From Bacteroidales bacterium (GTDB lineage: Bacteria; Bacteroidota; Bacteroidia; Bacteroidales; VadinHA17), in the NCBI GenBank assembly GCA_025358455.1, contig JANYJP010000117.1, forward strand, positions 1 through 32,282: 32,282 bases of DNA. Direction: 5' to 3'. Made by a program: the position numbers and the translations under genes. This document shows positions 11,380 through 32,282 of the stretch, in pieces. The notes below the pieces were generated by a model that saw only the letters and a program-made list of their open reading frames with translations, had not been told where the DNA came from and ran no database searches. Position 1 is the first letter of the stretch; each line of letters begins with the position of its first letter.

Positions 11380-11435
11380 CCTCACGCCTGACTCTTCACA
11401 CCTTTATATTACATTCACATTATTACATTCACATT
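11380..11435. repeat. Degenerate 7-bp-period tract with a perfect 14-bp tandem duplication
   Basis: From 11380 to 11435 the sequence divides into eight 7-bp units, beginning CCTCACG, CCTGACT, CTTCACA, and ending with ATTACATTCACATT duplicated exactly in tandem (11408-11421, 11422-11435). It spans the convergent junction of truA and the radical SAM gene, and the 14-bp copies lie within the last codons of the latter. Confidence 0.7.
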
Positions 11436-12363
11436 CTATGATAGGAGCAATTGACTGACTCAAATTCAATAGAGTCAATCGGTTTGTTCTTTTTTCAATA
11501 CACTTATCACAACTGGAAAACATAGCCAAATCCCATACATCGGCAAATACGCGCCCGGCATTTAATTTAATGCCATATTCCAAAACTGTTTCAAGTGATT
11601 TTATATCAGGTGGATAAAATAGTCCTTTTTCGAACAGAATATCCATTGCCCCGTTACCTGCTCTTACAGGTATAACTGTGCAACATTCAACACCAGAACT
11701 AAACGCAAAATCGATTGACTTTTCCGCCCAGTAAATCCCTTCTGGTTCTGTTAGAAATGGAGGCCTGAGCAAAATAAATGCTCTTGACAGTATCCCGTTT
11801 GTTGTAAGAAAACTGACCGACTTGCTGAAGTCTTCAGGGGTCATGCGTTTGTTGAGTTTCTTTAATATTTCAGGTTGTACAGTCTCAAGTCCGAGAGCTA
11901 TTTGCAAATCAGGTTTTAGCATATCCCTGAATATAAGGCATTTATTGTTAATCATCGTGGGATGACTTTCAACAATAACTGATTCGAAATTACTTACCAG
12001 GTCTGAAATTCTCTGATAGTCTTCATATGGTATAGCTTTTCCATCAAAGAAACTTCCACTATTATAAAGTTTCAGGTGTTTAGCTGGAGGTAACCGGTTT
12101 AAGGCCCATTCAATCTGGTCAGGGATAGCGCCTGCCGGAACAGATTTACCGGTAGTATTTTTCCAGAGGTCGCACATCAGGCAATGAAATGGACACTCCC
12201 TGTTTGTCAGAAAAATGATTGCAACATCCTCAATTTCTCCCGATACGGTGCGCTCCTTTTCAACAAGCCACGCGTATGGTTTATCAGGATCGACTGTATT
12301 TTTATTGCCACGGTGGGATACTATCCACCTGTCAGTAATCGGGAGATTAGTATGTTCATTCAT
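11404..12363 (-). CDS. Radical SAM protein (resembles the RaSEA/TIGR01210, Elp3-like group)
   Basis: The protein has 319 residues from the chosen start. It has the radical SAM cluster motif CPFHCLMC (CxxxCxxC) near residues 58-65, then features of a partial TIM barrel: a LYNSGSFFDG strand-loop, VESHP, and ALGLETVQPEILKKLNKRM. These resemble the TIGR01210/RaSEA group of Elp3-like enzymes (archaeosine-related in archaea), but the substrate here is not predictable. The ATG at 12363 is preferred over 12393 because the 8-bp overlap ATGAATGA with the stop of the preceding gene is typical of translational coupling. The last residues (ECECNNVNVI) are partly encoded by a 14-bp tandem duplication, so the C-terminus may be recently altered. 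Last gene of the 12-gene group. Confidence 0.85.
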   Translation of the reverse strand: MNEHTNLPITDRWIVSHRGNKNTVDPDKPYAWLVEKERTVSGEIEDVAIIFLTNRECPFHCLMCDLWKNTTGKSVPAGAIPDQIEWALNRLPPAKHLKLYNSGSFFDGKAIPYEDYQRISDLVSNFESVIVESHPTMINNKCLIFRDMLKPDLQIALGLETVQPEILKKLNKRMTPEDFSKSVSFLTTNGILSRAFILLRPPFLTEPEGIYWAEKSIDFAFSSGVECCTVIPVRAGNGAMDILFEKGLFYPPDIKSLETVLEYGIKLNAGRVFADVWDLAMFSSCDKCIEKRTNRLTLLNLSQSIAPIIECECNNVNVI

Positions 12364-13684
12364 AATGGGAAAGAAACTCCTTCCTGTAATCAATCTCTTT
12401 TACCGGAAAATGCCTTGTAAAATCCCTTGAAGATGCTGCTCCGTGCTGAAAACGTCTTTTCTGAAAGACTGGCATTTCCATTCCGGTTACAGCTTTTATT
12501 CCCTGAGAAACTATTTGTCCCTTCAAAGCATAAAGTTTTTCATGATCCCAATTGGTCATATCAATATAGGGAATCCCCTCTGAAATTTCAATCACATTTG
12601 GCAATGTATAGGGACTGAATCCTTCAAACCCCAGTGAATCCGAAGGAGTAAAGGTCCTCATATATCCGCGGCTCAATCCCCCTGAATATGTCAATGAATG
12701 TTTTATAGACTCCACGCCCCATCCTTCATGATATAACATCAGGTTATTAAGGACGCTCCTGATGGTTAGTTCAGGATTTTCTTCAATCGGGTAGTCTTTA
12801 AGGTTTTCATCCCCCCCGTCTCCGTCAATAATATATTTCCAGTCACGATAGCGTGAACGGATCCCATGCATAAGCGCCAGGTTCATTGTAGCTGATTGTA
12901 TGTCAAGGGCTTTATAGTCTTCAACTACTTTCACGGCATTCCTCCAATCGAGCGATGAATAATCAACTTCAACAGGTTCAAGGAACATTTCGAGATTCAG
13001 TGATTCAAGAAATTTTCTGGCCTGAATCAGATCTGCACCATCCCCGTCGATTGAAAGAGTAAATGCTTTCAACCTTGATGGGCTTTCCCCAAGCTCTTTA
13101 AGTGCATGGTAGGTAAGTAAAAATACTGAACCACTGTCAATTCCGGCTGAGAAGGTAACGCCCACAGGACCTTTTTTTGCCCGGTACTTCAGCCACTTTT
13201 TGATTTCATTATATAATACTCCAATATAGTTTTCACCAATTTCTGAAGTATTCAGTTGAGAATATTTATTTCGTTCCGGAGTAAAAAACCTGGTATAAAC
13301 AGGATTTGGATCAGGGCATCCCAATAGTTCAATTTTCGTGATATAATGCGCCGGAGCCATCCTTGTATATGATGGATGAAACTGGTGATCAAGGCCTTCC
13401 TTTTTAAGGTAATCAAAGATGACATCAATACGTTCAGCAATAATCAGGTTAGGGCCAGCCGGACGTTTTGCAATAAAATAACGGATCGGACGGCCAATTG
13501 ATCTTGCCATTCTTATAGTCTTGCCTTCTACTGAGACCAGTGCGAACTGCCCGTCAATTTTACGAACCGCGTCCACATCACCTGACCTGACGACATTAAC
13601 TGCCTCTTCGTTTGTCATGTTATAAATAATATTCTTTTCAGGGTTGGTGAGATCAATTACCTTTTCTAAATATTGACTATTCAT
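12356..13684 (-). CDS. Asparagine-synthetase-like ATP-dependent amide/lactam-forming enzyme without glutaminase nucleophile
   Basis: This 442-residue protein carries an N-terminal remnant of the class II glutamine amidotransferase fold (DGQFALVSVEGKTIRMARS near 44-62). It has no Cys at position 2, so it cannot hydrolyse glutamine. The C-terminal part has the PP-loop SAGIDSGS (179-186) for ATP pyrophosphatase chemistry and IIDGDGGDENLKDYP (285-299), the counterpart of the AsnB acidic motif. Such nucleophile-less relatives include beta-lactam synthetases and lasso-peptide cyclases, which activate a carboxylate with ATP and couple it to an amine. True asparagine synthesis is unlikely. It overlaps the radical SAM gene by 8 bp, so the pair probably acts together. 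The substrate is unknown. Confidence 0.85.
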   Translation of the reverse strand: MNSQYLEKVIDLTNPEKNIIYNMTNEEAVNVVRSGDVDAVRKIDGQFALVSVEGKTIRMARSIGRPIRYFIAKRPAGPNLIIAERIDVIFDYLKKEGLDHQFHPSYTRMAPAHYITKIELLGCPDPNPVYTRFFTPERNKYSQLNTSEIGENYIGVLYNEIKKWLKYRAKKGPVGVTFSAGIDSGSVFLLTYHALKELGESPSRLKAFTLSIDGDGADLIQARKFLESLNLEMFLEPVEVDYSSLDWRNAVKVVEDYKALDIQSATMNLALMHGIRSRYRDWKYIIDGDGGDENLKDYPIEENPELTIRSVLNNLMLYHEGWGVESIKHSLTYSGGLSRGYMRTFTPSDSLGFEGFSPYTLPNVIEISEGIPYIDMTNWDHEKLYALKGQIVSQGIKAVTGMEMPVFQKRRFQHGAASSRDFTRHFPVKEIDYRKEFLSHYE

Positions 13685-13724
13685 ATTTTCGGTTTTAAAA
13701 TTTTAAATCTAAAATATCCGCGAA

Positions 13725-15389
13725 CTATTTTATTATCATTCCTTTTCCCTCTGATATTGTAATATAACGGTCGGAATCAATTTTATTGTAAACCTCTGTT
13801 TTACCATCTGACCATTTGACCTCGAGCCGGTCTATCACTTTATCCGGGCCAAGTCCGATATGAAGTCGGGGATCGTTGTTGGAAAGGTAAGTTGTTGCCC
13901 ACTGATTTACCAGAACCTGTTTTTTAGCTCCTGCAATAACTGTAACCACTGCACTTATGGCCGAAGCTGGTCCGTCTTTGCCTTTCAGAGTCAGTCCCAG
14001 CCAATGATTATTATTTCCTCCATCATTTCTCAAAAGCACCGGTGTTCCATTGTTGTCAATATGCGAAATGATTATATCCATATCGCCGTCGTTATCGAAA
14101 TCCCATACAGCCAGACTTCTTCCTGATCGTTTTGTCGAGAAATAAGCGCCATGTTCCTTGCCAGTGTTCTTAAAATGTCCCTTACCGTCATTCTCAAGCA
14201 GTAATGGATATTGCAGAATAAGCTCCTCTGCGGTTCCGTTTGCAGCAACAATATCAAGATCGCCATCGTTATCATAATCAAAGAGTTGAGCACCCCAGCT
14301 GCTTTTGCCTTCCATGGCAGAGGCCACTCCGCTTTCTTCAGTTATGTCTTTAAAGACGCCATTACCAAGGTTTTTATATAAAGCTCCATAATCAAGGTCT
14401 GAGACGAGGATATCAATCAACCCATCGCCATCAATATCACCAATTGACCCATGCATTGAACCTGTTCCTTTCCCCTGGCTGTTTGCCGCAACGCCAATTT
14501 CCACACCGACCTCCTTGTATACGCCTTTATCATTTCTGAACATAAAATTCAGCTGGTGGTCATTGGCCTGAAAGATATCAATATCACCATCATTATCATA
14601 GTCAAAAATAGTAAGTCCCATGCATTTTGAATCAGGATAATAGAGGTTGTTCTTCCTGGTGACATCGAGAAATGTTCCGTCTGACTGCTGTTCATACAGC
14701 ATCGATGCCTGGCCCAAATATTCAGTCGGACTTGGCATCATTTTGGGTGCAGAAGGCGAAACATATGCCGGGTCAAAGGCCAGAAAGTTACCCACCATTG
14801 CATCAAGCCGCCCGTCAAGATTATAGTCCCAGAATGAGACTCCGATACTCCATTTTGTAAAACCGTTTAGTTTATCAGGTCCCCCCAGACCAAGCGATCT
14901 GGTAACGTCAGTAAAAGTTCCGTTCCGGTTGTTCATGAAAAAAATGTTTGAGCCATAATTCAGAACATAAAGATCCTGGTATCCATCATTGTTAATATCA
15001 ATGGCTCCTGCAGCCATGCTCCACTGATGGACATCAACACCGGCTGCTTTCGAGACCTCAGTAAATGTTCCGTTCCCGTTATTCTTATAAAGCTCATTAT
15101 GCGAATTTCTGAATACTTTTCCTGCAGGATCGGATATACCTTCAAGATAAGTACCATTCATCAGATAAAGGTCCATTAATCCATCATTATTGTAATCAAA
15201 AACCGTAATACCTCCACCGCTGCTTTCAAGTAAATTCTTATAGGAATAATCACCAATAGTATATTTAAAACTGATCCCGGCTTTCCTGGTTATGTCGGTA
15301 AAGATGACCCTTTTATTCTGTGCTGACGACTCAATGGTTATTAATAGCAGGAAAAGGCAAAATAATCTACCGGTAAAATTATTCTTCAT
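13725..15389 (-). CDS. CRTAC1-family secreted protein (FG-GAP repeats plus ASPIC/UnbV domain)
   Basis: The 554-residue protein has a type I signal peptide (cleavage likely after SSA near residue 23). At least seven FG-GAP/VCBS-type calcium-binding loops follow the pattern D-x-[DN]-x-D-G-x-x-D, for example DYNNDGLMDLYL (65-76), DINNDGYQDLYV, DYDNDGDLDIVA and DFDNDGDMDIII, making a probable beta-propeller. An ASPIC/UnbV domain (about 465-545) with YLSNNDPRLHIGLG ends the protein. It is extracytoplasmic, and binding rather than catalysis is likely. Its ATG overlaps the stop of the preceding TPR-CRTAC1 gene by one base (TAATG), so translation is coupled. Paralogue of the proteins encoded at 15389-18952 and 27624-29276. 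Confidence 0.92.
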   Translation of the reverse strand: MKNNFTGRLFCLFLLLITIESSAQNKRVIFTDITRKAGISFKYTIGDYSYKNLLESSGGGITVFDYNNDGLMDLYLMNGTYLEGISDPAGKVFRNSHNELYKNNGNGTFTEVSKAAGVDVHQWSMAAGAIDINNDGYQDLYVLNYGSNIFFMNNRNGTFTDVTRSLGLGGPDKLNGFTKWSIGVSFWDYNLDGRLDAMVGNFLAFDPAYVSPSAPKMMPSPTEYLGQASMLYEQQSDGTFLDVTRKNNLYYPDSKCMGLTIFDYDNDGDIDIFQANDHQLNFMFRNDKGVYKEVGVEIGVAANSQGKGTGSMHGSIGDIDGDGLIDILVSDLDYGALYKNLGNGVFKDITEESGVASAMEGKSSWGAQLFDYDNDGDLDIVAANGTAEELILQYPLLLENDGKGHFKNTGKEHGAYFSTKRSGRSLAVWDFDNDGDMDIIISHIDNNGTPVLLRNDGGNNNHWLGLTLKGKDGPASAISAVVTVIAGAKKQVLVNQWATTYLSNNDPRLHIGLGPDKVIDRLEVKWSDGKTEVYNKIDSDRYITISEGKGMIIK

Positions 15390-18300
15390 TATTTGTCTTT
15401 GTTTTTAAGTGCATTAAGATAACCTTCTGAAGTTACGATCCTGGTGTTATATTCCATATTATATTTCTGAAGATCAGGATTATTCGGGTAGGTGTCCTTG
15501 GCTGATGGGGGGTAGCTTGACATTCCATGAAATGGAAGCGGCAAAACCGTACTTCCCAGAGCAGTATTTATATCCCCGTCTTTTACCCAACCAACACTAT
15601 TTATGAGAAAGTCTCTTTTCCATCCTTTTTTTAATTCAGGTAAGGCACCGGCATTAAAATCTATAGAAGTTTCATCGCCTGCATTTGAAATAATATACTT
15701 GTTATCAGAAGCTGTAAGCAGAGGCAAAACGTCGCCATAACGTGTATAGTTTCCGGCCAGGTCTCTCCATTTTGGTTCTTTTGATACTTTGTGATAATCA
15801 AACCAATGAGGTCCGTACCGTCCGCCTTTTCTATAGCTGCCTGAGAAACCCCTGTAGTGAATGTCGGCAGAAACAGGATCTAATCTGGTTGAAATGATCG
15901 GAGTTGCAGAGATACAATCAGAAAAGAATGCCTGGTCCCAGTAAATTTCCATATTTGTCCTTATCCTGATCCGGTGGTCAGCTGTAAGAAATTTTCCTGA
16001 AATGTCTGCAATTACTGTTTTATTTTTCCCCATAGGAAAACCCAGTTTATCAATAACCGTCTGCCACTCACCTTTTTTATTAATAACCTGTACTATCGGA
16101 GGAATGACTTTTATATTGTCAGATTGTGACAAAGCAACATTAATACTAGCGTCTGTAGGAAAGATCCAGCCACTCAGGAATAAATACAGACTCTTCGGAT
16201 CTGCTTTGCCCGGATCAAGGATCAGATCCTTCATCTCTGTAACACCCTGATACTTATCGGGTTTAAAATCGGACACATATTTATCATCCTTTTCGGAGAT
16301 AAGCGGAAGTACATCATTTCCCCGGGAATCTTTAGCTGACGCAGGGAGATGTTTTTCCCTTACCTGGAAAATCTTCATGCCGGGAAAGGGTGGGGGAGAA
16401 AATTGCTCAGGAACGAATATGTCAACTGAATCAGGATGATCAACAGCAACCAATTGTATCTTATCCAGATATATGGTCTCCCATAGTTCTGATGTAACCT
16501 GAATTGAATATTTCCCATTCTTTGGTTTTAATAATTCCCCGGGTATTTTCAGGTAATCATCCGATGCATCAGGAAATGCATATGCGGTGGTACCTCCCAT
16601 GATACCCAGTGGCATTCCGAGTGCACTTCTCCACAGGATATCTTTTACAAATACATATTCATCACCATTCCAGGTATAAAGGAAAGGACATGATCCCTTG
16701 AGCGTTTGGGCCTCAATCAGGGCCTGATTAGCTCCTGGCAAAAAGATGTTTTGAGGTACTCCGTTTGTCCAGGTTATCCTGATCACGTCAGCCACTGAAT
16801 GATTTCCTATACCGAAATGAATATTCGGATCGGTGACTACCATAGTTTCGTAGAGATCACCTGCCCGAATTTCAACCTTAGCGCCTATTCCAAAGAAATT
16901 ATTCTTGGCACTTCCGGCACGAAGGCCAACGAGTTTCATTTTTACAAAATGATTGCTATTTCCGCCGTCATTGCGCAAAAGAGAGACTCCTCCATTCAGA
17001 CCTGCAACAACAAGATCAAGATCACCGTCATCATTATAGTCAAATACAGCAATCTGTCTGCCGGATTTCAGGTTTTCAGGCAACAATTTTGAAACGTCAG
17101 TGAAATTTCCTTTTCCGTCATTATGATAAAGAAAAAGTCCCTGACCTCCTTTTTCTGCCGGTTCACCTGCAAGAAAAAGATCGAGAAATCCGTCATTATC
17201 AAAATCGAAAAAACGGGCATCATAAATCTTAACACCCTGAATTGACCTGAACATCTCTTTCGTATTCTTAACCTTTTCAAAGGCGCCATTGCCAGAGTTC
17301 CGGTATAATTCATGACCAGTTCCGTTGCCGGAGGCAACAAAAATGTCAAGGAATCCATCATTATTGTAATCTCCAACTGTTACAGCGCTTGAACCACCAG
17401 TGCTTTTCAAACCACTGGTTTCAGTTACATCCTTAAAGATTCCCTGTCTTTGATTTGAATATAAAATGTTACTTGAGTTTTCATTTGCAACAAAAAGATC
17501 GATATCTCCATCTTCGTCAAAATCACCGGCTGCTGCATCTCTGCTTATACCTCCATTCCCTGACAATCCCATTTTTTCAGACATTTCCTGAAACGTTCCA
17601 TCTCCATTATTCCGGAAGAGCAGGTTCTTTCCCGCACATGTTTCAAAAAGATCAAGATCGCCATCATGATCGAAGTCGTAAAAAAAAGCTTTGGTTCCAC
17701 CTGTTTTAGTTCCGATCTTTGCTTTAGCTGTAACATCCTCAAAAGTTCCTTTTCCGGCATTTCTGTATAAAATGTCGCCACCCTCTCTTACTATAAACAG
17801 ATCAGGGAAACCGTCATTATCATAATCTGCAAATATTGCTGATGATTCCTTTCCTGAATGCGTTATGCCTACCTCGGCCGAAACATCTTTGAACCTTCCC
17901 ATTTCATTATTGAACAGGTAGTGTTTATAGGTTTTAGATACCTCATCATAGCTGCCAACATATAGATCTATATCCCCGTCATTGTCATAATCGGATGCTT
18001 CAACATGAGTTTTGCCATTGTTCTCATTGTTTTCAGCCTGAGCTGATACAGGAACAACATCAAATCCTGCTGATGAAGATGCATCGGTAAACTTAATTAC
18101 GTCTAGTATAGACTCATTTTCAGCTATTTGAGAAGAGGCTTGCTTATCAAAGGTGATCAGTGGAAATCCTATAAGATTTCCGCCCGGACCTTTCAGATCC
18201 ATCATACCTGCCTGATAGGGAGAGGTTACCTTAAGATAATTATGAAAAATGGTGAATTGTAAAGTTGCATTTGCTTTATCCTCTTTTTTAAGGCTTGAAA

Positions 18301-18952
18301 TTGTTTTATTGTAAAAATCAATGGCTTCTTTAGGAAATTCAGGAAATTGTTTGTGTATGATTTCCAATTGCGCTACTGCCTTATCTGATTCTCCGTTCCT
18401 GATATATATTTCCGTCAGGTTGAGTTGCGGTACAAGATTCCCGGGCGCTTTCTCAACGAGTCTTAGCAGGTAAGTCCTTCGTTGCCTCAGTGAAGCTGTA
18501 TCTGTATCTATTGAATACATTTCAGAAAGTTCATATAGGATTTTGACATGGTCAGTAGCAAATGTAAGCGCCTCTTTAAGTTCTGCAACTGAACTATCCT
18601 GTTCACTATTCATCTTAAATACAGTAGCCAATATCAACCGTATATCAGGGTCTTTGGGATCAATGCTAATTGCTTTTTGGAGTTGCTTCTCGGCCTCAGG
18701 ATACTTCCCCATTCTTAAATAGGTCAACCCTAGATTTGCATACCCCAGTTTTTCGTTTGGTACCAGTCTGGTAAACTTTAAAAATTCCTTTTCGGCATCC
18801 TCAAGCTTAAATTCCTCAAGATAAGCGAGGCCCAGTGTCTTGATGGTCATAAGATTCTGTGAATCCTGTTTCCCTTTCTCGGGGTTATTCTTACAACTGA
18901 ACAAAGCGAAAGTACAAAGCAGAATTAATAATAAACAGTTAAATTTTTTCAT
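15389..18952 (-). CDS. Large TPR + FG-GAP + ASPIC/UnbV lipoprotein
   Basis: The protein has 1187 residues from the ATG at 18952, where a lipoprotein signal peptide begins (lipobox FALFSC, C20); an ATG at 19021 would overlap the preceding gene and bury the signal. Order of domains: TPR repeats (about 30-215), eight or so FG-GAP calcium loops (about 318-665, such as DYDNDGDIDLYV and DFDEDGDIDLFV), an ASPIC/UnbV-like domain (about 684-750), then a 430-residue C-terminal region starting SCPFLYTWNGDEYVFVKDI with beta-rich character (GWIFPTDASINVALSQ, RTNMEIYWDQAFF). The last region recurs in TPR-ASPIC proteins of Bacteroidota and Acidobacteriota to my knowledge, but has no assigned function. Probably a surface or periplasmic scaffold. 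It is coupled to the next CRTAC1 gene. Confidence 0.9.
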   Translation of the reverse strand: MKKFNCLLLILLCTFALFSCKNNPEKGKQDSQNLMTIKTLGLAYLEEFKLEDAEKEFLKFTRLVPNEKLGYANLGLTYLRMGKYPEAEKQLQKAISIDPKDPDIRLILATVFKMNSEQDSSVAELKEALTFATDHVKILYELSEMYSIDTDTASLRQRRTYLLRLVEKAPGNLVPQLNLTEIYIRNGESDKAVAQLEIIHKQFPEFPKEAIDFYNKTISSLKKEDKANATLQFTIFHNYLKVTSPYQAGMMDLKGPGGNLIGFPLITFDKQASSQIAENESILDVIKFTDASSSAGFDVVPVSAQAENNENNGKTHVEASDYDNDGDIDLYVGSYDEVSKTYKHYLFNNEMGRFKDVSAEVGITHSGKESSAIFADYDNDGFPDLFIVREGGDILYRNAGKGTFEDVTAKAKIGTKTGGTKAFFYDFDHDGDLDLFETCAGKNLLFRNNGDGTFQEMSEKMGLSGNGGISRDAAAGDFDEDGDIDLFVANENSSNILYSNQRQGIFKDVTETSGLKSTGGSSAVTVGDYNNDGFLDIFVASGNGTGHELYRNSGNGAFEKVKNTKEMFRSIQGVKIYDARFFDFDNDGFLDLFLAGEPAEKGGQGLFLYHNDGKGNFTDVSKLLPENLKSGRQIAVFDYNDDGDLDLVVAGLNGGVSLLRNDGGNSNHFVKMKLVGLRAGSAKNNFFGIGAKVEIRAGDLYETMVVTDPNIHFGIGNHSVADVIRITWTNGVPQNIFLPGANQALIEAQTLKGSCPFLYTWNGDEYVFVKDILWRSALGMPLGIMGGTTAYAFPDASDDYLKIPGELLKPKNGKYSIQVTSELWETIYLDKIQLVAVDHPDSVDIFVPEQFSPPPFPGMKIFQVREKHLPASAKDSRGNDVLPLISEKDDKYVSDFKPDKYQGVTEMKDLILDPGKADPKSLYLFLSGWIFPTDASINVALSQSDNIKVIPPIVQVINKKGEWQTVIDKLGFPMGKNKTVIADISGKFLTADHRIRIRTNMEIYWDQAFFSDCISATPIISTRLDPVSADIHYRGFSGSYRKGGRYGPHWFDYHKVSKEPKWRDLAGNYTRYGDVLPLLTASDNKYIISNAGDETSIDFNAGALPELKKGWKRDFLINSVGWVKDGDINTALGSTVLPLPFHGMSSYPPSAKDTYPNNPDLQKYNMEYNTRIVTSEGYLNALKNKDK

Positions 18953-24157: not shown

Positions 24158-26176
24158 TTATAGTGAAGTGTGTTTTATTTTAGAAGGTATATTCTCATAT
24201 TCAGGAGCTCTCAGCGATTTCAGATACTCTACCAGATCGTTGAGCTGATTTTTATTCATGTCGTTTGCAAGGCCATGTTTGTCTTCTTTACCATATATAG
24301 TCCATATCTCCTCGAGTGTTGCAGCACGTCCGTCATGTAAATATGGCGGAGAAGCAAAAATATTATTAAGATGAGGAGTGTCGAATTTTATCGAATCGTC
24401 TGTGGCAGCCAGTGTACCTACACTTGCCAACTTTAAATTTGTATAATACGGTGGGGTGTGGCAGGTTATACAACGATTATTTTCAGGTATAACATTGCCA
24501 GAATTATCTTTTGTCCGTTCAAAAATTTCTTTGCCACGCAGTTGCGATCCGGTCAGTTCTCCGGTAGGATTATACATAAGATTCGGAGGATAGTGTATCC
24601 CGGTCAGTATATAAGCAGTCAGTGCGTCAAGATCCTCATAGCTAAACTGTTCAGATCTTGTAAGAACAGTTGAAAAACGTATCCCATCCTGTTTATAAAC
24701 AGTCTGATTTTTACCGTTCCATTTATATGGAGGAGTGTCACGGATATCCCTTAATGATTGAGTGTTTGTAAGGTTACGGCCCATATCCTTTGATGCCATA
24801 TTGTAAACCAGTCCATCTTCATGCATATCCGGATGACAGGTATAGCAGTCAAACTGATTCTGAAATGTATGTCCTGAATTATTGAAAAGCCTGCGGCCCT
24901 GCCTGGCAACTGTTATTCTCCGGGGACCACCAAGGCTGATTGTATTTATTGTTTCAAGACTTACCGTGTTTATTACTGCAATCCGGTCCTCAAGTTGTTC
25001 GGCTACATACAGTAACTTTCCATCAGGAGAGAGTGCGAGCCCTTTTGGATTTGCCCCGGTAGGTATTCGTTTTATAACATAACGGCTGCTGATTCCGAGG
25101 TTATTGGACCATTTATTGAGTATTTCAGGCGATGACTCTTTTAACAAAGTTCGTACGGAGTCAATATCAACCACAGAAATACAATTTACCCCTGAATGTG
25201 ATATGAAAGCTTTTTTCCCGTCAGGTGTGATTACAATATCGTAAGGATCAGAATAATATGCATTGGGTTCATCAAGTAATAACTGGATAACCCTGCCTTT
25301 TTCCTTCTGTTCAATGATGGTGATTCCATAAGTCATCATCCATCCCTGCTCAACCTGAATTGATGGAATAAGGTTTTTTGGTCTTATCATAGTCATTATG
25401 GCAAGATCTCCTGTAGGAGTGAAGGCAACGTTTTCTATCAAATAAGCCGATTCAATATTCCGGCGTGCGATTACTCTTTCCGTGCTCTCATCTACTACAG
25501 TAAGTTCACTCTTCAGGGTATCTCCATACGGAGCAATCAGGGCACGTCTGCTTGTAACATATAATGTTTTTCCATCAGGAGATAATTCTGCTCCTGTAGG
25601 ATTATTCCCGGCAGAAAACCTTTTGTGTTCTTCTCTGTTTTTAAGGTCTATGACAGAAATATCTGAAGAGAAAGAATTTACTACATACAAGTATTTGCCA
25701 TCAGCACTTAAAGAAAGTCCTGCAGGACCATTGCCCGTTTTTAAAGTATCAGACACTTTTTCTGTAACCAGATCAATTACCGATACATCATCTGACCATT
25801 GATTACTTACATAAGCTATTTTACCTGCCTCATCCAATACCACACCGTATGGGTATTTCCCTACCTTGATCTTATTTAATACCTTATGATTTTCAGGATC
25901 AACTACCAGTAGTGCATTTCCTTCCTGAGCAACAACATATAATCTTCCGCCATCTTTAGAAACAGCTAAATTAAATGGTGAGTAATAATCTGAATTAATA
26001 AGCTTTACTATAAGTTTGTTCTTCGATAGGGGAATATGACAGGAAGTACACATCAGCGGATGGTCCTCAACACCTGTTTTTGAATTAACATGAGCCCTGG
26101 CCAGTTTGCGTCCGGGGAAATAAATTATCAATCCCAGAACAACAATAATCAGCATAATCTTATAAGTAGTCTTCAT
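24158..26176 (-). CDS. Triheme cytochrome: YVTN beta-propeller fused to MauG/cytochrome-peroxidase-like domain
   Basis: The protein has 672 residues with an N-terminal membrane anchor (about 7-20) and three heme c motifs: CTSCH (43-47), CYTCH (444-448) and CITCH (569-573). Between the first and second is a YVTN/YncE-type propeller (about 60-425) with blades such as LSPDGKTLYVTSR and LSPDGKLLYVAEQ. The C-terminal part (about 430-655) resembles di-heme peroxidase/MauG proteins, with RDTPPYKWNGKNQT and the closing PYLHDGRAATLEEIW. This group makes peroxidases or oxidises protein side chains; which applies here is unknown. It acts outside the cytoplasm, needs cytochrome c maturation, and is 2 bp from the preceding monoheme gene, so the two may exchange electrons. 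Confidence 0.92.
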   Translation of the reverse strand: MKTTYKIMLIIVVLGLIIYFPGRKLARAHVNSKTGVEDHPLMCTSCHIPLSKNKLIVKLINSDYYSPFNLAVSKDGGRLYVVAQEGNALLVVDPENHKVLNKIKVGKYPYGVVLDEAGKIAYVSNQWSDDVSVIDLVTEKVSDTLKTGNGPAGLSLSADGKYLYVVNSFSSDISVIDLKNREEHKRFSAGNNPTGAELSPDGKTLYVTSRRALIAPYGDTLKSELTVVDESTERVIARRNIESAYLIENVAFTPTGDLAIMTMIRPKNLIPSIQVEQGWMMTYGITIIEQKEKGRVIQLLLDEPNAYYSDPYDIVITPDGKKAFISHSGVNCISVVDIDSVRTLLKESSPEILNKWSNNLGISSRYVIKRIPTGANPKGLALSPDGKLLYVAEQLEDRIAVINTVSLETINTISLGGPRRITVARQGRRLFNNSGHTFQNQFDCYTCHPDMHEDGLVYNMASKDMGRNLTNTQSLRDIRDTPPYKWNGKNQTVYKQDGIRFSTVLTRSEQFSYEDLDALTAYILTGIHYPPNLMYNPTGELTGSQLRGKEIFERTKDNSGNVIPENNRCITCHTPPYYTNLKLASVGTLAATDDSIKFDTPHLNNIFASPPYLHDGRAATLEEIWTIYGKEDKHGLANDMNKNQLNDLVEYLKSLRAPEYENIPSKIKHTSL

Positions 26177-26178: not shown

Positions 26179-27612
26179 CTATTCCAGTTCTATAGCTTTC
26201 TCTTTAAGATTTGATTTGTGTACCGGAATAATTACCGGAGCCTTTTTAACCGACAAGGGTATATTATTCCCTGGAACCATTTCAGGATCCCCGTGACAAC
26301 CGACGCATCCACGCCTCTCATTTGGTCGCAACCAGATCCAGTCACTGGGTCCATTTAAAACCTTGCCATTTTCATCAACAGTCTGAATCCGGAATGGTGT
26401 ATCAGCAATAACTTTTAAATAAAAGGACCCGTCCTGCTCAACCTGAACTACTCCAAGTGTTGAATCTTTTCCGATCACCTCTATTTTGTATGCTTTTGAT
26501 AAAGCGGAGGTATTAACTGATGATTGAGCTTCTGATACATTAATATTCTGACAAAGAATTAATCCGGTCTTCACACCTTTATCCACTTCGCTTGGCAGTT
26601 TTTTTGGTCTTTCATGCGCCTCAACAGCAATAACTTCCAGAATATCAAAATCTTTATTACTATAAATAGCATTATCAACAGACCTTTTCTCAGGATCAAA
26701 TCCGTAAATGGCGTACCTGTCAGTTTCCGACTTACGATAGGAGACTAGTAACCTGCCTGATTTAAGTGGGAAAACTGAATTGAAATTGCCTTCAATTTCA
26801 GAGCTGAGATTTACCCGTGTATGTAACGGCCGGTTATAATTAATGGAAATTACATTTCCCTTTTCCCTGTTGCTTTTTTCTGATTCGATAAAGACTATCC
26901 TGCCATTGCTGGTTTCCCAACCGTGACCTGACAGGATATTACCCTCAGAACTTTTATAAAATAGTTCTGCTTTTGTGCCATCGGGCCTGAGTGCCATATA
27001 AACCGGGTCTCTTTTCTCGGGGTAAACCTGTTTGCTTATAGTTAATATGCGACCGTCTTTTAATGTAGTTGAAGATGAAAAAACATCAGGATTAAAAGTA
27101 ATTTGTCTGACATCAGAGCCGTTTACATTACAGCTGAAAATAGAATGGCCTGACTTCAATGTATCATTAAGTGGTATTTTGCTAAATATCAAACGTTCTC
27201 CAGGTAACCATGCAGGATCGATACAGTTTTCCGGCGCGGAAGTAATCTGATTTATTTTTGAATTCGCCGGATTCATTTCATAAATCTGCCATGTATCGCC
27301 TTGTTTTTTCTGACCGGTAAATATTAACTGAGTGCCATCAAAAGAAACCGCAGGCGATTTTGCAGAATAGAAATCTTCTGTAAGGATAGTAGGCGAATCA
27401 CCTGATTTATCAGGGTCAATAGAGAATATCCGTGTCAGTGCTGTATATTCCAGAGTCTCTTCAGCCACATTTTTATCCTGTTCCTTTCCGTAAACCTGTG
27501 TAAAGATTATCATACCATCAGCGGACTTTCTCCTGCAGGATGCGAAAAACAGGAATGAAAAGCCCGAGACCATCAGGATAGAAAGGATTATGGTCGATCT
27601 TGTTCTATTCAT
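26179..27612 (-). CDS. Monoheme lipoprotein related to the hydrazine synthase alpha subunit (HzsA-like)
   Basis: The 477-residue protein has a lipoprotein signal peptide (lipobox FFASC, C26), a TolB/PD40-like beta-propeller (about 30-330) with blades like SPAVSFDGTQLIFTGQ, and a C-terminal domain resembling HzsA: VIAVEAHERPKKLPSEVDKG, TGLILCQNI, VEQDGSFYLKVIADTPFRIQ in sequence order, then WIWLRPNERRGCVGCHGDPE with one heme c site (CVGCH, 436-440). HzsA-like proteins are widespread outside anammox bacteria and their function there is unknown. No HzsB or HzsC homologue is nearby, so hydrazine synthesis is not claimed. It probably sits on the membrane outside the cytoplasm, and is tightly linked to the CRTAC1 gene (11 bp) and the triheme cytochrome gene (2 bp). 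Confidence 0.85.
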   Translation of the reverse strand: MNRTRSTIILSILMVSGFSFLFFASCRRKSADGMIIFTQVYGKEQDKNVAEETLEYTALTRIFSIDPDKSGDSPTILTEDFYSAKSPAVSFDGTQLIFTGQKKQGDTWQIYEMNPANSKINQITSAPENCIDPAWLPGERLIFSKIPLNDTLKSGHSIFSCNVNGSDVRQITFNPDVFSSSTTLKDGRILTISKQVYPEKRDPVYMALRPDGTKAELFYKSSEGNILSGHGWETSNGRIVFIESEKSNREKGNVISINYNRPLHTRVNLSSEIEGNFNSVFPLKSGRLLVSYRKSETDRYAIYGFDPEKRSVDNAIYSNKDFDILEVIAVEAHERPKKLPSEVDKGVKTGLILCQNINVSEAQSSVNTSALSKAYKIEVIGKDSTLGVVQVEQDGSFYLKVIADTPFRIQTVDENGKVLNGPSDWIWLRPNERRGCVGCHGDPEMVPGNNIPLSVKKAPVIIPVHKSNLKEKAIELE

Positions 27613-27623: not shown

Positions 27624-29276
27624 TTATTGTTCCTTAACAGTAAGAATCTGGTTAGCTTTGATATTCTCCAATATCTGTAGTTTGCCTGATGGCCATTTAA
27701 TTTCAATCTTTTCAACCATATCACTTTTTGCAAGGCCAAAATGCATCCTCGGATCATTCTGGGAGAGGTAGCCGGTAGTGCTTTTCTTTTGGGCTGTCTG
27801 AACTTTGCCTCCGGAGCTGATTTTTACTCTTGAACCAATACCATCCCTATTGCTTGTGGTTCCCACTAAATTAAGTTCCAGCCAGTTATTCTGATTCCCT
27901 TTATTGTTTCTCAGAAATGCCCCACTATCGTTAAGATTTACAATATAGCCATCTATATCGCCATCGTTATCATAATCTCCGAAACAGGCGCCACGTCCGA
28001 CAAGTTCCTGAAGGAAATATTTTCCACTCTCGGTTGAGACATCCTTAAACTTCCCGTTCCCAATATTTTCAAATAGCTGATCTTCCTGTCCATAAAGATG
28101 TTTCAATGCACCGTTAACTTTGTATATATCCACAAGGCCATCATTATTATAGTCAATAAATGAAGATGACCAACCAACGTATTGTCCGGCAGGCATTGCA
28201 ATCCCTGAAGAATATGACCTGTCTGAGAAGATCCCGTTTCCAAGGTTTTCATATAGCCTGCAGTATTTGTCATCAGAAATAAACATATCCATGCGTCCGG
28301 AACCCGTATAATCAGCAAAATCCACTGACATACTTACAGCAGATTCACCTGACTGACCGAACGCGGTGCCTGATGGTGTGCCCATATCAGTAAAACCTTT
28401 TCCGCCGTTATTATGCCATAGATAATTCATTGAATGATCATTTGCCACATAAATATCAACGAAACCATCATCATCATAATCAATTGCTCCGACCCCCATA
28501 GCTCTTCCATCACGATCTGTTATACCCATAGATTTAGTAACATCTTCAAAGGTACCATCGCCGTTATTATGATAAAGAATATCAGGCTGTGCATCATAGG
28601 CCATTGGGCTAGGGAAGCCATCGGGAGCATAATAATATTTATATTTTGGATCGAAATTAAGGTAATTGCCTACGTAAAGGTCGAGAAAACTGTCATTATC
28701 GTAATCAAGCCATACAGCGCCTGTGCTGAATTTATTTTCTTCACCTCCAACTTTAGCCCGTTTGGTAACATCAGTAAATGTGCCGTTGCCATTATTTTTA
28801 TAAAGCACATTTGGGCCATAGTTGCTTACAAATAAATCGGGATAACCATCATTATTGTAATCGCCTACGGTTACTCCCATGCTGTACCAGGGGCCGCCTA
28901 CACCGGCTTTTTTTGTGACATCTTCAAATGTGCCATCTCCGCGATTGTGATAAAGATGATTCTGCGGCATCTTATCGGGCTTTGGTTCGCTGCTTAAACC
29001 TTCTTTCCAGGTTCCGCTGGTTATATATAAATCGATATACCCATCCTGGTCATAATCCAGAAAAGCAACACCTCCACCACTTGATTCTACAATATTGCTT
29101 AATTCTTTATCTCCTATGGAATGAATAAAATCCAAACCAATCTCTTTCCCAATCTCCTGAAAATAATCATCGGTTGCAACAGGAACAGAAGTTACAGATT
29201 GTTTTTGAGTATTTTTAGATTGGCATCCGGCAAGGATCAGAAAAAAAACGAAGAGGTAAACAATATACTTAAGCAT
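27624..29276 (-). CDS. CRTAC1-family lipoprotein (FG-GAP repeats plus ASPIC/UnbV domain), first gene of the large operon
   Basis: From 29276 the product has 550 residues and a short lipoprotein signal peptide (lipobox LILAGC, C18). FG-GAP-type loops follow, such as DYDQDGYIDLYI, DYNNDGYPDLFV, DYDNDSFLDLYV, DYDDDGFVDIYV and DYDNDGDIDGYI, then a C-terminal ASPIC/UnbV domain with TTGYLSQNDPRMHFGLA. The frame is open to an ATG at 29363, but the promoter-like box at 29344-29336 lies inside that extension, so the start must be 29312 or 29276; I prefer 29276 for the signal peptide. It shares domain order with the protein encoded at 13725-15389. It is the leading gene of the operon after a 285-bp gap that carries repeated GATTAAA-like elements. 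Confidence 0.9.
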   Translation of the reverse strand: MLKYIVYLFVFFLILAGCQSKNTQKQSVTSVPVATDDYFQEIGKEIGLDFIHSIGDKELSNIVESSGGGVAFLDYDQDGYIDLYITSGTWKEGLSSEPKPDKMPQNHLYHNRGDGTFEDVTKKAGVGGPWYSMGVTVGDYNNDGYPDLFVSNYGPNVLYKNNGNGTFTDVTKRAKVGGEENKFSTGAVWLDYDNDSFLDLYVGNYLNFDPKYKYYYAPDGFPSPMAYDAQPDILYHNNGDGTFEDVTKSMGITDRDGRAMGVGAIDYDDDGFVDIYVANDHSMNYLWHNNGGKGFTDMGTPSGTAFGQSGESAVSMSVDFADYTGSGRMDMFISDDKYCRLYENLGNGIFSDRSYSSGIAMPAGQYVGWSSSFIDYNNDGLVDIYKVNGALKHLYGQEDQLFENIGNGKFKDVSTESGKYFLQELVGRGACFGDYDNDGDIDGYIVNLNDSGAFLRNNKGNQNNWLELNLVGTTSNRDGIGSRVKISSGGKVQTAQKKSTTGYLSQNDPRMHFGLAKSDMVEKIEIKWPSGKLQILENIKANQILTVKEQ

Positions 29277-29335
29277 ATATAAACTATTGTAGTTAGTCTT
29301 TGTTGTATTCATAGTAGTCAGGTTCTGATAAGGGC

Positions 29336-29344
29336 GCAAATATA
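29336..29344 (-). promoter_or_regulatory. Putative -7 box of the 12-gene operon
   Basis: On the minus strand 29344-29336 reads TATATTTGC, a full TAnnTTTG match followed by C. Transcription would begin near 29329, 17 nt before the ATG at 29312 and 53 nt before the one at 29276. A clear -33 TTTG is absent. A weaker alternative -7 (TATTATTG, 29453-29446) lies next to the 11-bp repeats. Confidence 0.5.
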
Positions 29345-29461
29345 TTGATTTTTTCCATTTCATTTTAAGTTATTAATCAGATCAATTGTTTACGTTTATT
29401 TAAACCGTCAGGTTCAGGTATTATGCTCATTCAGGGGCTAAGTGTCAATAATAAATCATGA

Positions 29462-29561: not shown

Positions 29562-30932
29562 TTATGAGATTGAAGGAAGAATTACAATAAACTTTGTTCC
29601 TTTACCAAGAACGGACGTGAGTTTTATTGTTCCATTATGGCTTTTAATTATCTGATTAACAAGAGGTAATCCTATGCCGGTGCCACGGATTGAAGCTGCA
29701 TTGGAGCCACGATAAAAGGGTTCAAAAACCTTTTTGATATCCTCTTCTGAAATACCAATACCTTTGTCTTCAAATGCTATCTCTAACCTTTTTTCGAAGT
29801 GGTTCAGCTTGATATCAACGGTATGGTCATGTGAGTATTTGCATGCATTGTCAATGAGGTTTGAAACAGCAACTTTCAGCAATGATTCGTCACCGACCAC
29901 AATCATCTGATCGGAATCGGTCAATGAATTATCAATAGAAATATTAATATGAAAATCCTTATTAAACCTTTTCATTTCCTCCTGAGCCTGCCAGAGAATT
30001 TCATCGATTCTGAATTTTTTATTCAGATTTACAGGACTATCTGTGCTGGTACGGGCTATCAAAAGTAATCTGTTTGAAAGGTTTATCAGGGATTTAATAT
30101 CGTCAAGTACCGACTCAAGGGCAGCTTTATATTCATTGGTGGAGCGATCTTTCATCATGAGAACTTCCAGTTGTCCGTTAATCGATGTAAGAGGGGTCCT
30201 CAATTCATGAGATGCATTGGAAATAAAATCCTTCTGCATCTTAAATGATATCTCGAGGCGTTCAAGCATCTTATTAAAAGTTTTTGCGAGTCTGCCTATC
30301 TCATCAGTTCCATTACCCACATTTACTCTTAAATTCAGGCTGGTTATAGAAATGTCTTCTGCTTTCTTTACTACATCTGATATTGGTTTAAGCGCTCTCC
30401 CTGAATAAAACCATCCGGCAATAAAAAACAAGACCAGGCTAAACGAACAAACAATTATTAAAATGGTCTTTAATTTTTCAAGATGTAATGCGCCTTCAAT
30501 ATCGCGGGCGCCGGCGACTATCACGAACCGGTCATAATTTGTGAAAAATAATGTTGCCATAACTGAAAAATCGGCTTGGTTATAAGAAACCTTATAACCT
30601 AATCTTACCCGTTCCAGAATATTATTTCTTATTTCAATTTCCCTGTTCTTATCTGAACTATAGACTGTATCGTTTGCAAAATTGATAATAATTATCTTTT
30701 CATTCTGCAGGTTAACCGGATTGTCGTTTTCAATTTTGAGAAGTCGATCTGCATCAGTTTTATTAGTACTAAAAAGTATGCCGGCGGTGCTAAGCGCTTT
30801 ATTCCTGAGACGGTTATAAAAGTCCTCCCTCCTGAAACTTGCTGAGGAAACATAAATTGCCATGGATGCAATAATCATAATTATTCCCCCCAGCAGGAGA
30901 AACTGTAAGGTTAATCTGGTTCTGATCTGCAT
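29562..30932 (-). CDS. Sensor histidine kinase (HAMP, HisKA, HATPase_c)
   Basis: Starting at 30932 gives 456 residues. There are two membrane helices (about 8-30 and 155-175) flanking a periplasmic sensor region of about 125 residues, then a HAMP linker (about 176-230). The phosphoacceptor motif is FISNASHELRTPLTSING, with H242. The ATPase domain shows the N box LIDNACKYS, G1 DKGIGI, F box FEPFYRG and G2 GTGIGLPLV. The chosen ATG is 1 bp from the stop of the response-regulator gene; a start at 30959 would overlap that gene by 26 bp. The sensor domain is not recognised. The 12-gene operon follows 285 bp downstream on the same strand. Confidence 0.95.
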   Translation of the reverse strand: MQIRTRLTLQFLLLGGIIMIIASMAIYVSSASFRREDFYNRLRNKALSTAGILFSTNKTDADRLLKIENDNPVNLQNEKIIIINFANDTVYSSDKNREIEIRNNILERVRLGYKVSYNQADFSVMATLFFTNYDRFVIVAGARDIEGALHLEKLKTILIIVCSFSLVLFFIAGWFYSGRALKPISDVVKKAEDISITSLNLRVNVGNGTDEIGRLAKTFNKMLERLEISFKMQKDFISNASHELRTPLTSINGQLEVLMMKDRSTNEYKAALESVLDDIKSLINLSNRLLLIARTSTDSPVNLNKKFRIDEILWQAQEEMKRFNKDFHINISIDNSLTDSDQMIVVGDESLLKVAVSNLIDNACKYSHDHTVDIKLNHFEKRLEIAFEDKGIGISEEDIKKVFEPFYRGSNAASIRGTGIGLPLVNQIIKSHNGTIKLTSVLGKGTKFIVILPSIS

Positions 30933-30933
30933 T

Positions 30934-31611
30934 TTAGATATCTCCAAAAATATATCCAAATCCGACCCTGGTATGGATCAGTTTTTTATCGTATCCCTTA
31001 TCAATTTTCTTTCTCAGGAAATTAACATAGACATCGACAACATTGGTTCCGAAATCAAAGCTTACTTCCCAGACTTTTTCAGCAATATCATTCCGTGATA
31101 ATACCCTTCCGCTATTCCTCATAAAGTATTCAAGTAAAGAAAACTCTTTAGCGGTAAGCTCAATATGTGTGTTTCCTCTGTGAGCAACTTTCATATCAAG
31201 ATCCAGTTCCAGATCACCAACAACAAGATTGTTTGCTTTGTCAGGCGCAGGGTTGGATATCCTGAGTAAAACCTTTACTCTTGCAAGCAGCTCCCTGAAT
31301 TCGAATGGCTTAACCAGATAATCATTCGCTCCTGCATCAAATCCAATAAGCTTATCATCAGTTGTGCCAAGGGCAGAAAGCATTAAAACAGGCACATTTG
31401 AGTTTAGTTTTTTAAGTTTTTGACACAAATCCAAACCTGTGATACCCGGAATTATAATATCAAGTATAAAAAGGTCATACTTATATTGTTGCGCAAGCTT
31501 TTCTGCAGATATTCCATCATAAGCTATTTCAGCTTCATAATGACTTTCTTCAAGACCCTTTTTTATAAATGAAGCAACCTTCGGTTCATCTTCGACAATC
31601 AATATCTTCAT
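30934..31611 (-). CDS. OmpR-family response regulator
   Basis: The 225-residue protein has a receiver domain (1-115) with the acidic pair ED (7-8), phosphoacceptor D51 in FILDIIIPG, the conserved Ser in MLSA (77-80) and K101 in LVKPFEF. The C-terminal winged-helix domain (about 125-222) has ELTAKEFSLLEYFM and the recognition-helix region NVVDVYVNFLRKKID, ending HTRVGFGYIF. It belongs to the ArlR/CusR-like OmpR subgroup, is cotranscribed with the kinase, and is divergent from the SusC-type gene. Its DNA-binding class fits the 11-bp direct repeats at 29462-29505 and 31829-31861. That it binds them is inference. Confidence 0.95.
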   Translation of the reverse strand: MKILIVEDEPKVASFIKKGLEESHYEAEIAYDGISAEKLAQQYKYDLFILDIIIPGITGLDLCQKLKKLNSNVPVLMLSALGTTDDKLIGFDAGANDYLVKPFEFRELLARVKVLLRISNPAPDKANNLVVGDLELDLDMKVAHRGNTHIELTAKEFSLLEYFMRNSGRVLSRNDIAEKVWEVSFDFGTNVVDVYVNFLRKKIDKGYDKKLIHTRVGFGYIFGDI

Positions 31612-31861: not shown

Positions 31862-31888
31862 AATAATTATAAAAATTCCTGTTTTTTT

Positions 31889-31918
31889 ATTGTAGTTATG
31901 ATTTTTTATATAGATTTG
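31889..31918 (+). promoter_or_regulatory. Bacteroidota-type promoter of the SusC-type gene
   Basis: ATTG (31889-31892) is followed after 18 bp by TAGATTTG (31911-31918). Element identity and spacing equal those of the promoter at 3417-3446. The transcript would start near 31925, giving a leader of about 55 nt before the ATG at 31981. Confidence 0.65.
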
Positions 31919-31980
31919 TACGTTGACCTAAGACCTGAACACGTTAATTCTTGCTTTATATTATAAACCCTTTAACTAAC

Positions 31981-32282
31981 ATGTTTAAAAAACGACTGAC
32001 TATGCAAATTTCAACCAATGTGCGGCGCATTGCGCTGTTTTTTCTCAGCATGGTACTTTCATCGGGCATTATCTTTGCTCAGGAAAGAACCATTACAGGG
32101 AAGGTTACTGCTGAAGGCGAGGGACCACAACCTGGAGTGAACGTTACTGTCCAGGGGACGGTAATCGGAGCTATTACTGACCTCAATGGCGCTTATTCAA
32201 TTAAAGTTCCAAGTCAGGCTTCAGTACTTTTATTTTCATCTGTTGGTTATACAACCCAACAGGTAACTGTCGGATCACAAAA
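31981..32282 (+). CDS. SusC/RagA-type TonB-dependent outer-membrane receptor (3' truncated by window edge)
   Basis: One hundred codons are visible. A signal peptide (hydrophobic stretch about 18-35, ending near IIFAQ) is followed by a carboxypeptidase-regulatory-like domain, beginning ERTITGKVTAEGEGPQPGVN and continuing GTVIGAITDLNGAYSIKVP and SSVGYTTQQVTVG. That order is typical of SusC-family receptors, which import large substrates with a SusD lipoprotein partner; the plug and barrel lie beyond the window. The gene is divergent from the two-component genes and has its own promoter with 11-bp direct repeats upstream, so it may belong to the same regulon as the 12-gene operon. The substrate cannot be told from this part. 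Confidence 0.88.
   Translation, partial: MFKKRLTMQISTNVRRIALFFLSMVLSSGIIFAQERTITGKVTAEGEGPQPGVNVTVQGTVIGAITDLNGAYSIKVPSQASVLLFSSVGYTTQQVTVGSQ

Follow-up and report, generated by a model that had tools for sequence, protein, structure and literature searches.

A conserved twelve-gene block of Bacteroidales that joins an exported CRTAC1/heme module to a cytoplasmic ligase-radical SAM module

The window analysed here, by which we mean the whole stretch of DNA, is an entire contig of 32,282 bases from a Bacteroidales bacterium of the VadinHA17 lineage (JANYJP010000117.1 in assembly GCA_025358455.1, genome completeness 95.7%). It carries a block of 12 close-packed open reading frames, all on the minus strand and running from 29363 down to 11404, in which three CRTAC1 proteins and two heme proteins related to hydrazine synthase (HZS) are found with two solute-binding proteins (SBP1 and SBP2), an AsnS-like ligase and a radical S-adenosylmethionine (SAM) enzyme, named rSAM below:

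27624..29363, minus strand: CRTAC_A, an FG-GAP/UnbV lipoprotein (PF13517, PF07593; alternative starts 29312 and 29276)
26179..27612, minus strand: HzsA-like monoheme lipoprotein, an HZS-alpha relative with the heme alpha-I motif only (PF18582, 68.4 bits)
24158..26176, minus strand: YVTN triheme protein, with a hydrophobic stretch and heme motif, an HZS-beta-like propeller and an HZS-gamma/MauG-like diheme part
22983..24137, minus strand: Prop, a regulator-type beta-propeller with an N-terminal hydrophobic stretch (weak PF07494, 20.3 bits, cut-off 20.4)
22360..22935, minus strand: RidA-fold protein with an N-terminal extension, optional (PF01042, 54.5 bits)
21039..22397, minus strand: SBP1, branched-chain-type solute-binding protein (PF13458, 151 bits; alternative start 22352)
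20139..21023, minus strand: DAHP synthase of AroA I-beta type, extra copy, optional (NF006421, 453.5 bits, cut-off 335)
18993..20117, minus strand: SBP2, second solute-binding protein, fast evolving (PF13458, 123.5 bits)
15389..19021, minus strand: CRTAC_B, a lipoprotein with TPR, FG-GAP/UnbV and a C-terminal region lacking a Pfam match (alternative start 18952)
13725..15389, minus strand: CRTAC_C, an FG-GAP/UnbV exported protein (Pfam match)
12356..13684, minus strand: AsnS-like ATP-dependent ligase without the glutaminase nucleophile (PF00733, 36.3 bits)
11404..12393, minus strand: rSAM, a RaSEA-like radical SAM enzyme (TIGR01210, 105 bits, cut-off 212; alternative start 12363)

Family searches agreed for all twelve genes with the list given by a first-pass annotation of the window, including the three CRTAC1 proteins, one CxxCH in HzsA and three in YVTN. 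The gaps of -8 to +47 bp that it reported were reproduced when internal in-frame ATGs were used, the values hinging on the choice of start codon. Terminator-like sites across the block were not above chance (12, against 15.4 in shuffles) and promoter-like sites hardly in excess (69, against 58.1 with a standard deviation of 7.0); the top promoter-like site (11/12) lies at 29448-29420, immediately upstream of CRTAC_A. Lipobox-like motifs are present in CRTAC_A (LAGC), CRTAC_B (LFSC) and HzsA, and no signal was seen by eye at the N-termini of RidA, DAHP synthase, AsnS and rSAM.

To follow conservation, we used 17 further genus contigs in which the whole stretch from CRTAC_A to CRTAC_C is present (G001, G005, G006:C64, G008, G009, G011, G017, G018, G019, G020, G026, G027, G032, G033, G042, G054 and G056). 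All 17 share the order CRTAC_A, HzsA, YVTN, Prop, SBP1, SBP2, CRTAC_B, CRTAC_C, and genus contigs that end inside the block keep it in the genes that are visible. Because eight genes share one order in every spanning contig, the block is not a chance assembly. The first-pass annotation had proposed a single system and named scattering of the genes in relatives as what would speak against it; we found eight families co-ordered throughout the genus, and the block in other classes as well. The complete twelve-gene set is together in 12 of the 17 contigs. Variable genes are the DAHP synthase (present in 16), AsnS (15, two of them incomplete), RidA (14, missing from the block in G018, G054 and G056) and rSAM (13 on the same contig). 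In G019, AsnS is cut by the contig end and rSAM is located on a different contig; in G033, a second DAHP gene lies elsewhere, the in-block copy being in its usual place. In G001, rSAM and the in-block DAHP gene are missing and AsnS is truncated to about 394 residues with the remaining block intact (L284), so that AsnS and rSAM seem to decay together. Among 98 relatives, own genome included, rSAM was found in 29, AsnS in 30 and, at E 1e-20, HzsA in 29 (G068 being a weak partial match). Of the 58 genomes of the genus, again with our own, 24 have both HzsA and rSAM, 3 have HzsA alone (G001, G054, G056), 3 rSAM alone and 28 neither; in the three rSAM-only genomes (G021, G037, G039) the gene is on a contig of less than 9 kb.

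The system consists of two separable modules, one exported (HzsA, YVTN, the three CRTAC1 proteins, Prop, SBP1 and SBP2) and one cytoplasmic (the AsnS-like ligase and the RaSEA-like radical SAM enzyme). Their co-occurrence was measured in 395 genomes sampled evenly from the phylum to which the window belongs. CRTAC_B was scored on those two candidates of each genome that ranked highest at first look, with a threshold of E 1e-150 set in this analysis; three of the 13 rows of its model come from AsnS-positive sample genomes, and kinship was handled by genus counts only. AsnS was found in 24 genomes, a CRTAC_B-type protein in 41 and an HzsA orthologue in 4, plus two weak matches in AsnS-negative genomes. 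A CRTAC_B-type protein is present in every one of the 24 AsnS genomes and in 17 of the 371 without AsnS (Fisher test, 9e-28); counted by genus, the figures are 12 of 12 against 6 of 159 (2e-14). The four HzsA-positive genomes all have AsnS. This distribution suggests that CRTAC_B may be the protein that needs the product of AsnS and rSAM.

Beyond the genus, the block takes two arrangements and is found in further Bacteroidota, Maribacter, Lutibacter and Lutimonas among them. A search of named genomes with the AsnS alignment gave at least 590 matches, of which 570 were confirmed; 80 loci among the matches listed were classified on flanks of up to 10 kb, with identity thresholds set in this analysis. 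The named AsnS relatives among these matches are from Bacteroidota, the closest being mostly metagenome-assembled genomes (MAGs) of Bacteroidales. In 32 of the 80 listed loci the system has the window's layout, upstream of AsnS, with CRTAC_B in 32, CRTAC_C in 32, SBP2 in 31, RidA in 26 and the DAHP gene in 20; in 13 it lies downstream of rSAM, with RidA in 5, SBP2 in 4, CRTAC_C in 3 and DAHP in 1, many of these loci stopping short of the genes concerned. A further 24 listed loci fit neither arrangement clearly, and 11 are short. The rSAM gene adjoins AsnS downstream in 72 of 74 listed named loci with room for it (77 of 80 overall), and CRTAC_C is upstream of AsnS in 46 of 61 with room. Prop keeps its position between YVTN and RidA/SBP1 both in the genus and in the other loci, and SBP2 identity ranges from 34 to 74% across loci. 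No DAHP gene separates SBP1 from SBP2 in Maribacter, Lutimonas and Lutibacter citreus (L089). HzsA was found in 15 of 17 genomes behind named loci, and not in a Cyclobacteriaceae MAG (G112, L145) nor in a Bacteroidia MAG (G113, L148). Strains kept in culture collections carry the block as well, HzsA included, for example Maribacter polysiphoniae DSM 23514 and Lutimonas halocynthiae CECT 8444. In a flavobacterial genome (L201), CRTAC_A and HzsA are adjacent and YVTN is not beside them; at L197:6731-8119, a PAP2-superfamily protein (27.4 bits, cut-off 27.2), which we take to be haloperoxidase-like, lies between CRTAC_A and a large CRTAC1 protein.

The AsnS-like protein scores above the PF00733 cut-off of 21 bits. 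Its SxGxDS loop and GGxE, the asparagine synthetase-type ATP-pyrophosphatase motifs, are kept in 20 aligned rows, and residue 2 is never Cys. In asparagine synthetase B an N-terminal Cys is the glutaminase nucleophile, and the amidotransferase-like enzyme without nucleophile that had been noticed in the window is thus borne out in all 20 rows. Enzymes of the PF00733 family use ATP to activate a carboxylate, and those that lack the glutaminase can take another amine, as in enzymes of beta-lactam synthetase type. For rSAM, RaSEA (TIGR01210) is the closest NCBIfam model, the runner-up reaching 20 bits; a CxxxCxxC motif is found at residue 67, and PF04055 gives 25.1 bits, just below its cut-off of 29.5. 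In other genera, 20 of the 23 AsnS loci were examined (L210-L229; G122, G237 and G419 were left out). The rSAM gene is within about 2 kb of AsnS in all 20, adjacent in 16 and at 1.7-2.0 kb in L212, L215, L216 and L219. A flavoprotein of about 500 residues, QhpG/LodB/CmlS-like, follows rSAM in 19 of these loci, L215 stopping at the contig end; AsnS, rSAM and flavoprotein form a compact biosynthetic trio there.

The HzsA-like protein has a single CxxCH (436-440), whose Cys436, Cys439 and His440 are kept in 20 of 20 aligned orthologues, and resembles parts of the HzsA chain of PDB 5c2v, including its middle domain. YVTN, which matches 5c2v_B (E 1e-55) and 5c2v_C (1e-18), has its three CxxCH at 43, 444 and 569; these are invariant together with Trp486 in 19 of 19 rows, and His614 is invariant in the alignment too. 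The two C-terminal CxxCH and the Trp in catalytic position, found in all 19 rows, are the features of a MauG-type enzyme; available passages of PMC12758564 equate a Trp at this position with the catalytic Trp of cytochrome c peroxidase and MauG. The heme pair may act as a unit of peroxidase or oxidase type. The extracytoplasmic electron transfer proposed in the first-pass annotation fits the conserved heme motifs, and we identified no redox partner for the pair.

All three CRTAC1 proteins have FG-GAP and UnbV_ASPIC domains, CRTAC_B having TPRs in addition, and the block opens with CRTAC_A in all 17 spanning genus contigs. The C-terminal region of CRTAC_B was modelled with a pLDDT (predicted local distance difference test) of 87.6 and, taken alone, has at least 6,428 matching clusters at E 1e-8. 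An enediyne-type pair consists of an UnbV domain protein and UnbU, an NQR2/RnfD-like membrane protein; the UnbV domain is present in the CRTAC1 proteins of the window and the NQR2/RnfD-like membrane protein is absent among its scanned genes. PF03116 was matched beside CRTAC1 in relatives, with 39.1 bits in L222 (cut-off 27.7) and, below cut-off, 23.4 in L266 and 23.7 in L268. In L222, L265-L270 and L280, judged mostly by eye, an RnfD/NqrB-like membrane protein adjoins CRTAC1 proteins whose lengths are about 600 and 1,150 residues, frequently together with SusC and a third CRTAC1 protein of about 1,115.

SBP1 and SBP2 belong to the Peripla_BP_6 family. A search of the whole genome for the branched-chain-type permease PF02653 gave no match (genome 95.7% complete; the control was positive in 12 of 14), so that binding proteins without a transporter, as first described from the window, are a genome-wide trait as far as this search shows. 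SBP1 and SBP2 are therefore not ordinary importer parts, and may act as ligand carriers or chaperones. In the RidA-fold protein, a Ser is aligned to the Arg of PDB RidA entries 9bjv and 9bjy; that Arg is an active-site residue of Rid deaminases, and the protein reaches 40 of the 106 bits of TIGR00004. The DAHP synthase passes TIGR01361 (403.2 bits, cut-off 267.8) in addition to NF006421. The same genome holds a KDO8P synthase (above cut-off) and one divergent DAHP-type protein, hence the copy in the block looks extra. As parts of the system, which is how they had been annotated, both genes occur in most genus blocks and are optional, Maribacter having no DAHP gene there.

Our tentative preference, held with less than even confidence, is that AsnS and rSAM make a small molecule that serves the CRTAC1/heme complex as ligand, oxidation substrate or cofactor. 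The ligase would activate a carboxylate with ATP and join it to an amine, and rSAM would rework the adduct, by analogy with the action of ArcS and RaSEA on preQ0, to yield the molecule; the extra DAHP synthase and the non-canonical RidA-fold protein may assist synthesis in some lineages. Beyond the inner membrane, the permease-less SBP1 and SBP2 would pass the molecule to a complex in which CRTAC1 propellers, chiefly CRTAC_B, are joined with the HzsA-like/triheme heme pair. This pair would oxidise it or employ it as a cofactor, electrons leaving through the hemes. The two-component pair described below, which is metal-sensor-like, would be the likely control, and a SusCD-CRTAC1 unit may carry a related ligand across the outer membrane. 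Since the ATP- and SAM-dependent steps are cytoplasmic and the other proteins that are always kept are exported, the product of AsnS and rSAM would be a small nitrogen-containing molecule; the first proposal, that a modified aromatic or amino-acid-derived molecule is made or captured, stays hypothetical. The molecule, the direction of its transfer, the formation of a complex and the redox partner are what we infer.

Several observations weigh against this proposal. HzsA orthologues occur in only 4 of the 24 AsnS genomes of the sample, and AsnS is missing in 17 of the 41 with CRTAC_B. The genomes of G054 and G056 have neither AsnS nor rSAM and keep the exported block, which shows the modules to be separable, and five of the 24 listed loci that fit neither arrangement clearly (L099, L122, L127, L133, L144), each with 10 kb on both sides, have AsnS and rSAM without the heme block; four of these five genomes carry HzsA elsewhere. 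Modules found apart imply that the heme pair is dispensable where the ligase pair works, and vice versa. CRTAC_B was within the flanks of none of the 13 listed loci with the system downstream of rSAM, many of which stop short. The block has no gene for a small-molecule exporter, AsnS reaches 31 of the 267 bits of the asparagine synthetase B model TIGR01536, and rSAM stays below the TIGR01210 cut-off. Finally, AsnS and rSAM keep company with a MauG-like protein in this block and with a QhpG/LodB-like flavoprotein in other genera, which hints at an exchange, but three f65 genomes (G233, G450, G482) have the heme block and AsnS on separate contigs, and two of them the flavoprotein as well. MauG-like protein and flavoprotein are thus not simple substitutes, which weakens a plain swap.

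The same evidence can be read as protein maturation: AsnS and rSAM, with the flavoprotein or the MauG-like protein, would build a protein-derived cofactor such as tryptophylquinone on CRTAC_B or a sister protein. The constant company of AsnS and a CRTAC_B-type protein (24 of 24) speaks for this, as do one Cys and seven Trp that never vary across 41 rows of the CRTAC_B C-terminal region, and the invariant Trp486 of the MauG-like protein. The third gene of the trio matches, in the members checked, models of the maturases QhpG, LodB and GoxB and also that of CmlS, a halogenase, all below cut-off. Yet the lipobox-like signal of CRTAC_B means that the ATP- and SAM-dependent steps must precede the export of a 1,200-residue protein, AsnS is lacking in the 17 CRTAC_B genomes already mentioned, and YVTN stays below the cut-offs of MauG (TIGR03791, 19.2 of 443.9 bits) and of the beta subunit of quinohemoprotein amine dehydrogenase (55 of 223 bits). 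We regard maturation as unlikely, while giving it some weight.

Further genes flank the block. Upstream of CRTAC_A are:

29562..30959, minus strand: sensor histidine kinase, CusS/CopS-like, a frequent neighbour (TIGR01386, 202 bits, below cut-off 292.6)
30934..31611, minus strand: OmpR-type response regulator, CusR-like, a frequent neighbour (TIGR01387, 233 bits, below cut-off 279.2)
31951..32282, plus strand: start of a divergent SusC/RagA TonB-linked receptor (TIGR04056, first 63 of 981 positions), truncated because the contig ends at 32282

Sixteen contigs, window included, could be read upstream of CRTAC_A. A kinase and regulator were within 0.8 kb in 11 of them (window, G001, G005, G008, G017, G018, G019, G020, G026, G027, G056), the pair being partly beyond the stretch covered in G001, G008 and G020. 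G042 has them at a distance of 2.6 kb and G033 at about 5 kb, inverted; none turned up in the 13, 17 and 2.8 kb covered in G009, G011 and G054, respectively. Past the regulator, SusC follows in the window, G005, G017, G018, G026, G027 and G042, and was not in the 1.3 kb covered upstream in G056. A complete SusC-SusD-CRTAC1 unit is at the same site in G017 (SusD confirmed by Pfam) and G026; in L088, kinase, regulator and SusC are at the rSAM end, and in Lutibacter citreus (L195) the SusC unit flanks the block. Such patchy recurrence marks them as recurrent partners and not as core: the pair and receptor that the first-pass annotation had joined to the operon are present and frequent, without being invariant. 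If an aromatic or polymer fragment from outside the cell reached a periplasmic heme oxidase through a SusCD-CRTAC1 unit, with the cytoplasmic enzymes processing it, these units would be its entry point; we find this quite unlikely. At the other end, TruA (10517-11374) is convergent to rSAM, and TruA was found in 11 genus contigs, which suggests a single ancestral site. The TruA-rSAM-AsnS end occurs twice in the G006 bin, on different contigs (L036, L066), possibly from a strain mixture. Further on, 6173-10351 holds genes of a YeeE/TsuA-like sulfur transporter, a rhodanese and heme-copper oxidase-type subunits.

Nitrogen-oxide or hydrazine chemistry by a true functional relative of HZS would account for the similarity to all three HZS subunits, but we judge it very improbable. 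Trp486 of YVTN aligns with gamma-His144, and gamma-Cys165 has no conserved counterpart (no conserved Cys at 488-511; one row has a Cys at 497). In HzsA, none of 20 rows has a Tyr, the heme alpha-I ligand Tyr591 of HZS, in the seven residues after CxxCH, and the heme alpha-II motif is missing; the roles of these four elements in HZS are taken from available passages of PMC12758564, which reach the same verdict on the homologues treated there. Scores are far below the NCBIfam cut-offs, for HzsA (NF052339, 107 bits, cut-off 800) as for YVTN (NF052342, 257 of 1250; others, 224 of 560 and 84 of 625 bits). That unrelated genes simply happen to lie together, an idea for which the modules found apart in some genomes could be quoted, is scarcely credible beside the eight-gene order in 17 of 17 genus contigs and two recurring arrangements elsewhere.

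A bolder version of our proposal, which we consider improbable, is a new extracytoplasmic redox system in which AsnS and rSAM, with the flavoprotein elsewhere, would make a dedicated organic cofactor like pyrroloquinoline quinone, either free or bound to protein, CRTAC_B would be the holo-enzyme and the HZS-like heme proteins its oxidase. If this is true, the very large bacterial CRTAC1/UnbV family would gain its first function. HZS relatives outside anammox bacteria have been noticed before (PMC12758564, PMC10732223), the passages available giving no function. The block ties these relatives and the CRTAC1 family to two dedicated enzymes in collection strains, and so opens them to knock-out and metabolomics. 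It also means that hzs-like matches in metagenomes need not signal anammox. The blocks of G054 and G056, without AsnS, rSAM and RidA (L282, L283), are a natural test of the exported part alone.

Among known systems, the ArcS-RaSEA archaeosine pathway shares with the block the rSAM model match and, according to available passages of PMC11298593, a ligase-then-radical logic: ArcS and then RaSEA act on preQ0, RaSEA converting the lysine adduct formed by ArcS. It differs in that our rSAM is below the cut-off, its partner is of AsnS type and not ArcS, and the host is bacterial. The qhp operon of quinohemoprotein amine dehydrogenase likewise combines a YVTN propeller, hemes and a radical SAM enzyme, and its QhpG-like flavoprotein has a counterpart in other genera; here, however, rSAM is of RaSEA type and no QhpG-like flavoprotein was found at E 1e-15 in 59 genomes (36 of the genus, own included), a search that had no independent positive control. 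With MauG and the bacterial diheme peroxidases YVTN shares the two C-terminal CxxCH and, by the published description of the catalytic position, the invariant Trp, but its chain also includes a YVTN propeller and a third heme motif, and both TIGR03791 and NF040606 are far below cut-off. Available passages of PMC7876137 set MauG beside QhpG, LodB and GoxB as alternative enzymes maturing tryptophylquinone cofactors. Anammox hydrazine synthase (5c2v) corresponds to the block in parts of the HzsA chain, the HzsB propeller and the HzsC diheme part, while the window proteins have neither its active-site residues nor the alpha-II motif and have gained an N-terminal heme motif and hydrophobic stretch. 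Closest are the HZS-like loci of Hagglund et al. (PMC12758564, December 2025); PMC10732223 proposes, in its available part, that HZS-like proteins belong to a broader family whose members act on other substrates. As far as the available description of clade III goes, these loci have a CRTAC1 gene, an alpha-like gene, a fused beta-gamma-like gene and two ABC-type binding-protein genes downstream, with heme alpha-I only, one extra heme motif and Trp in place of gamma-His144. Compared by that description, the window agrees with the clade in gene order, heme count and Trp. The same description does not include Prop, RidA, the DAHP synthase, CRTAC_B and CRTAC_C, AsnS, rSAM or the two-component and SusCD neighbours. 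The system had been put forward as undescribed; its heme core with CRTAC1 and binding proteins is published in PMC12758564, and no paper describing the full twelve-gene block was found in the open-licence literature. What is new here is the order of the twelve genes, the biosynthetic pair and the dependence of AsnS on CRTAC_B, added to a heme core already described though without function.

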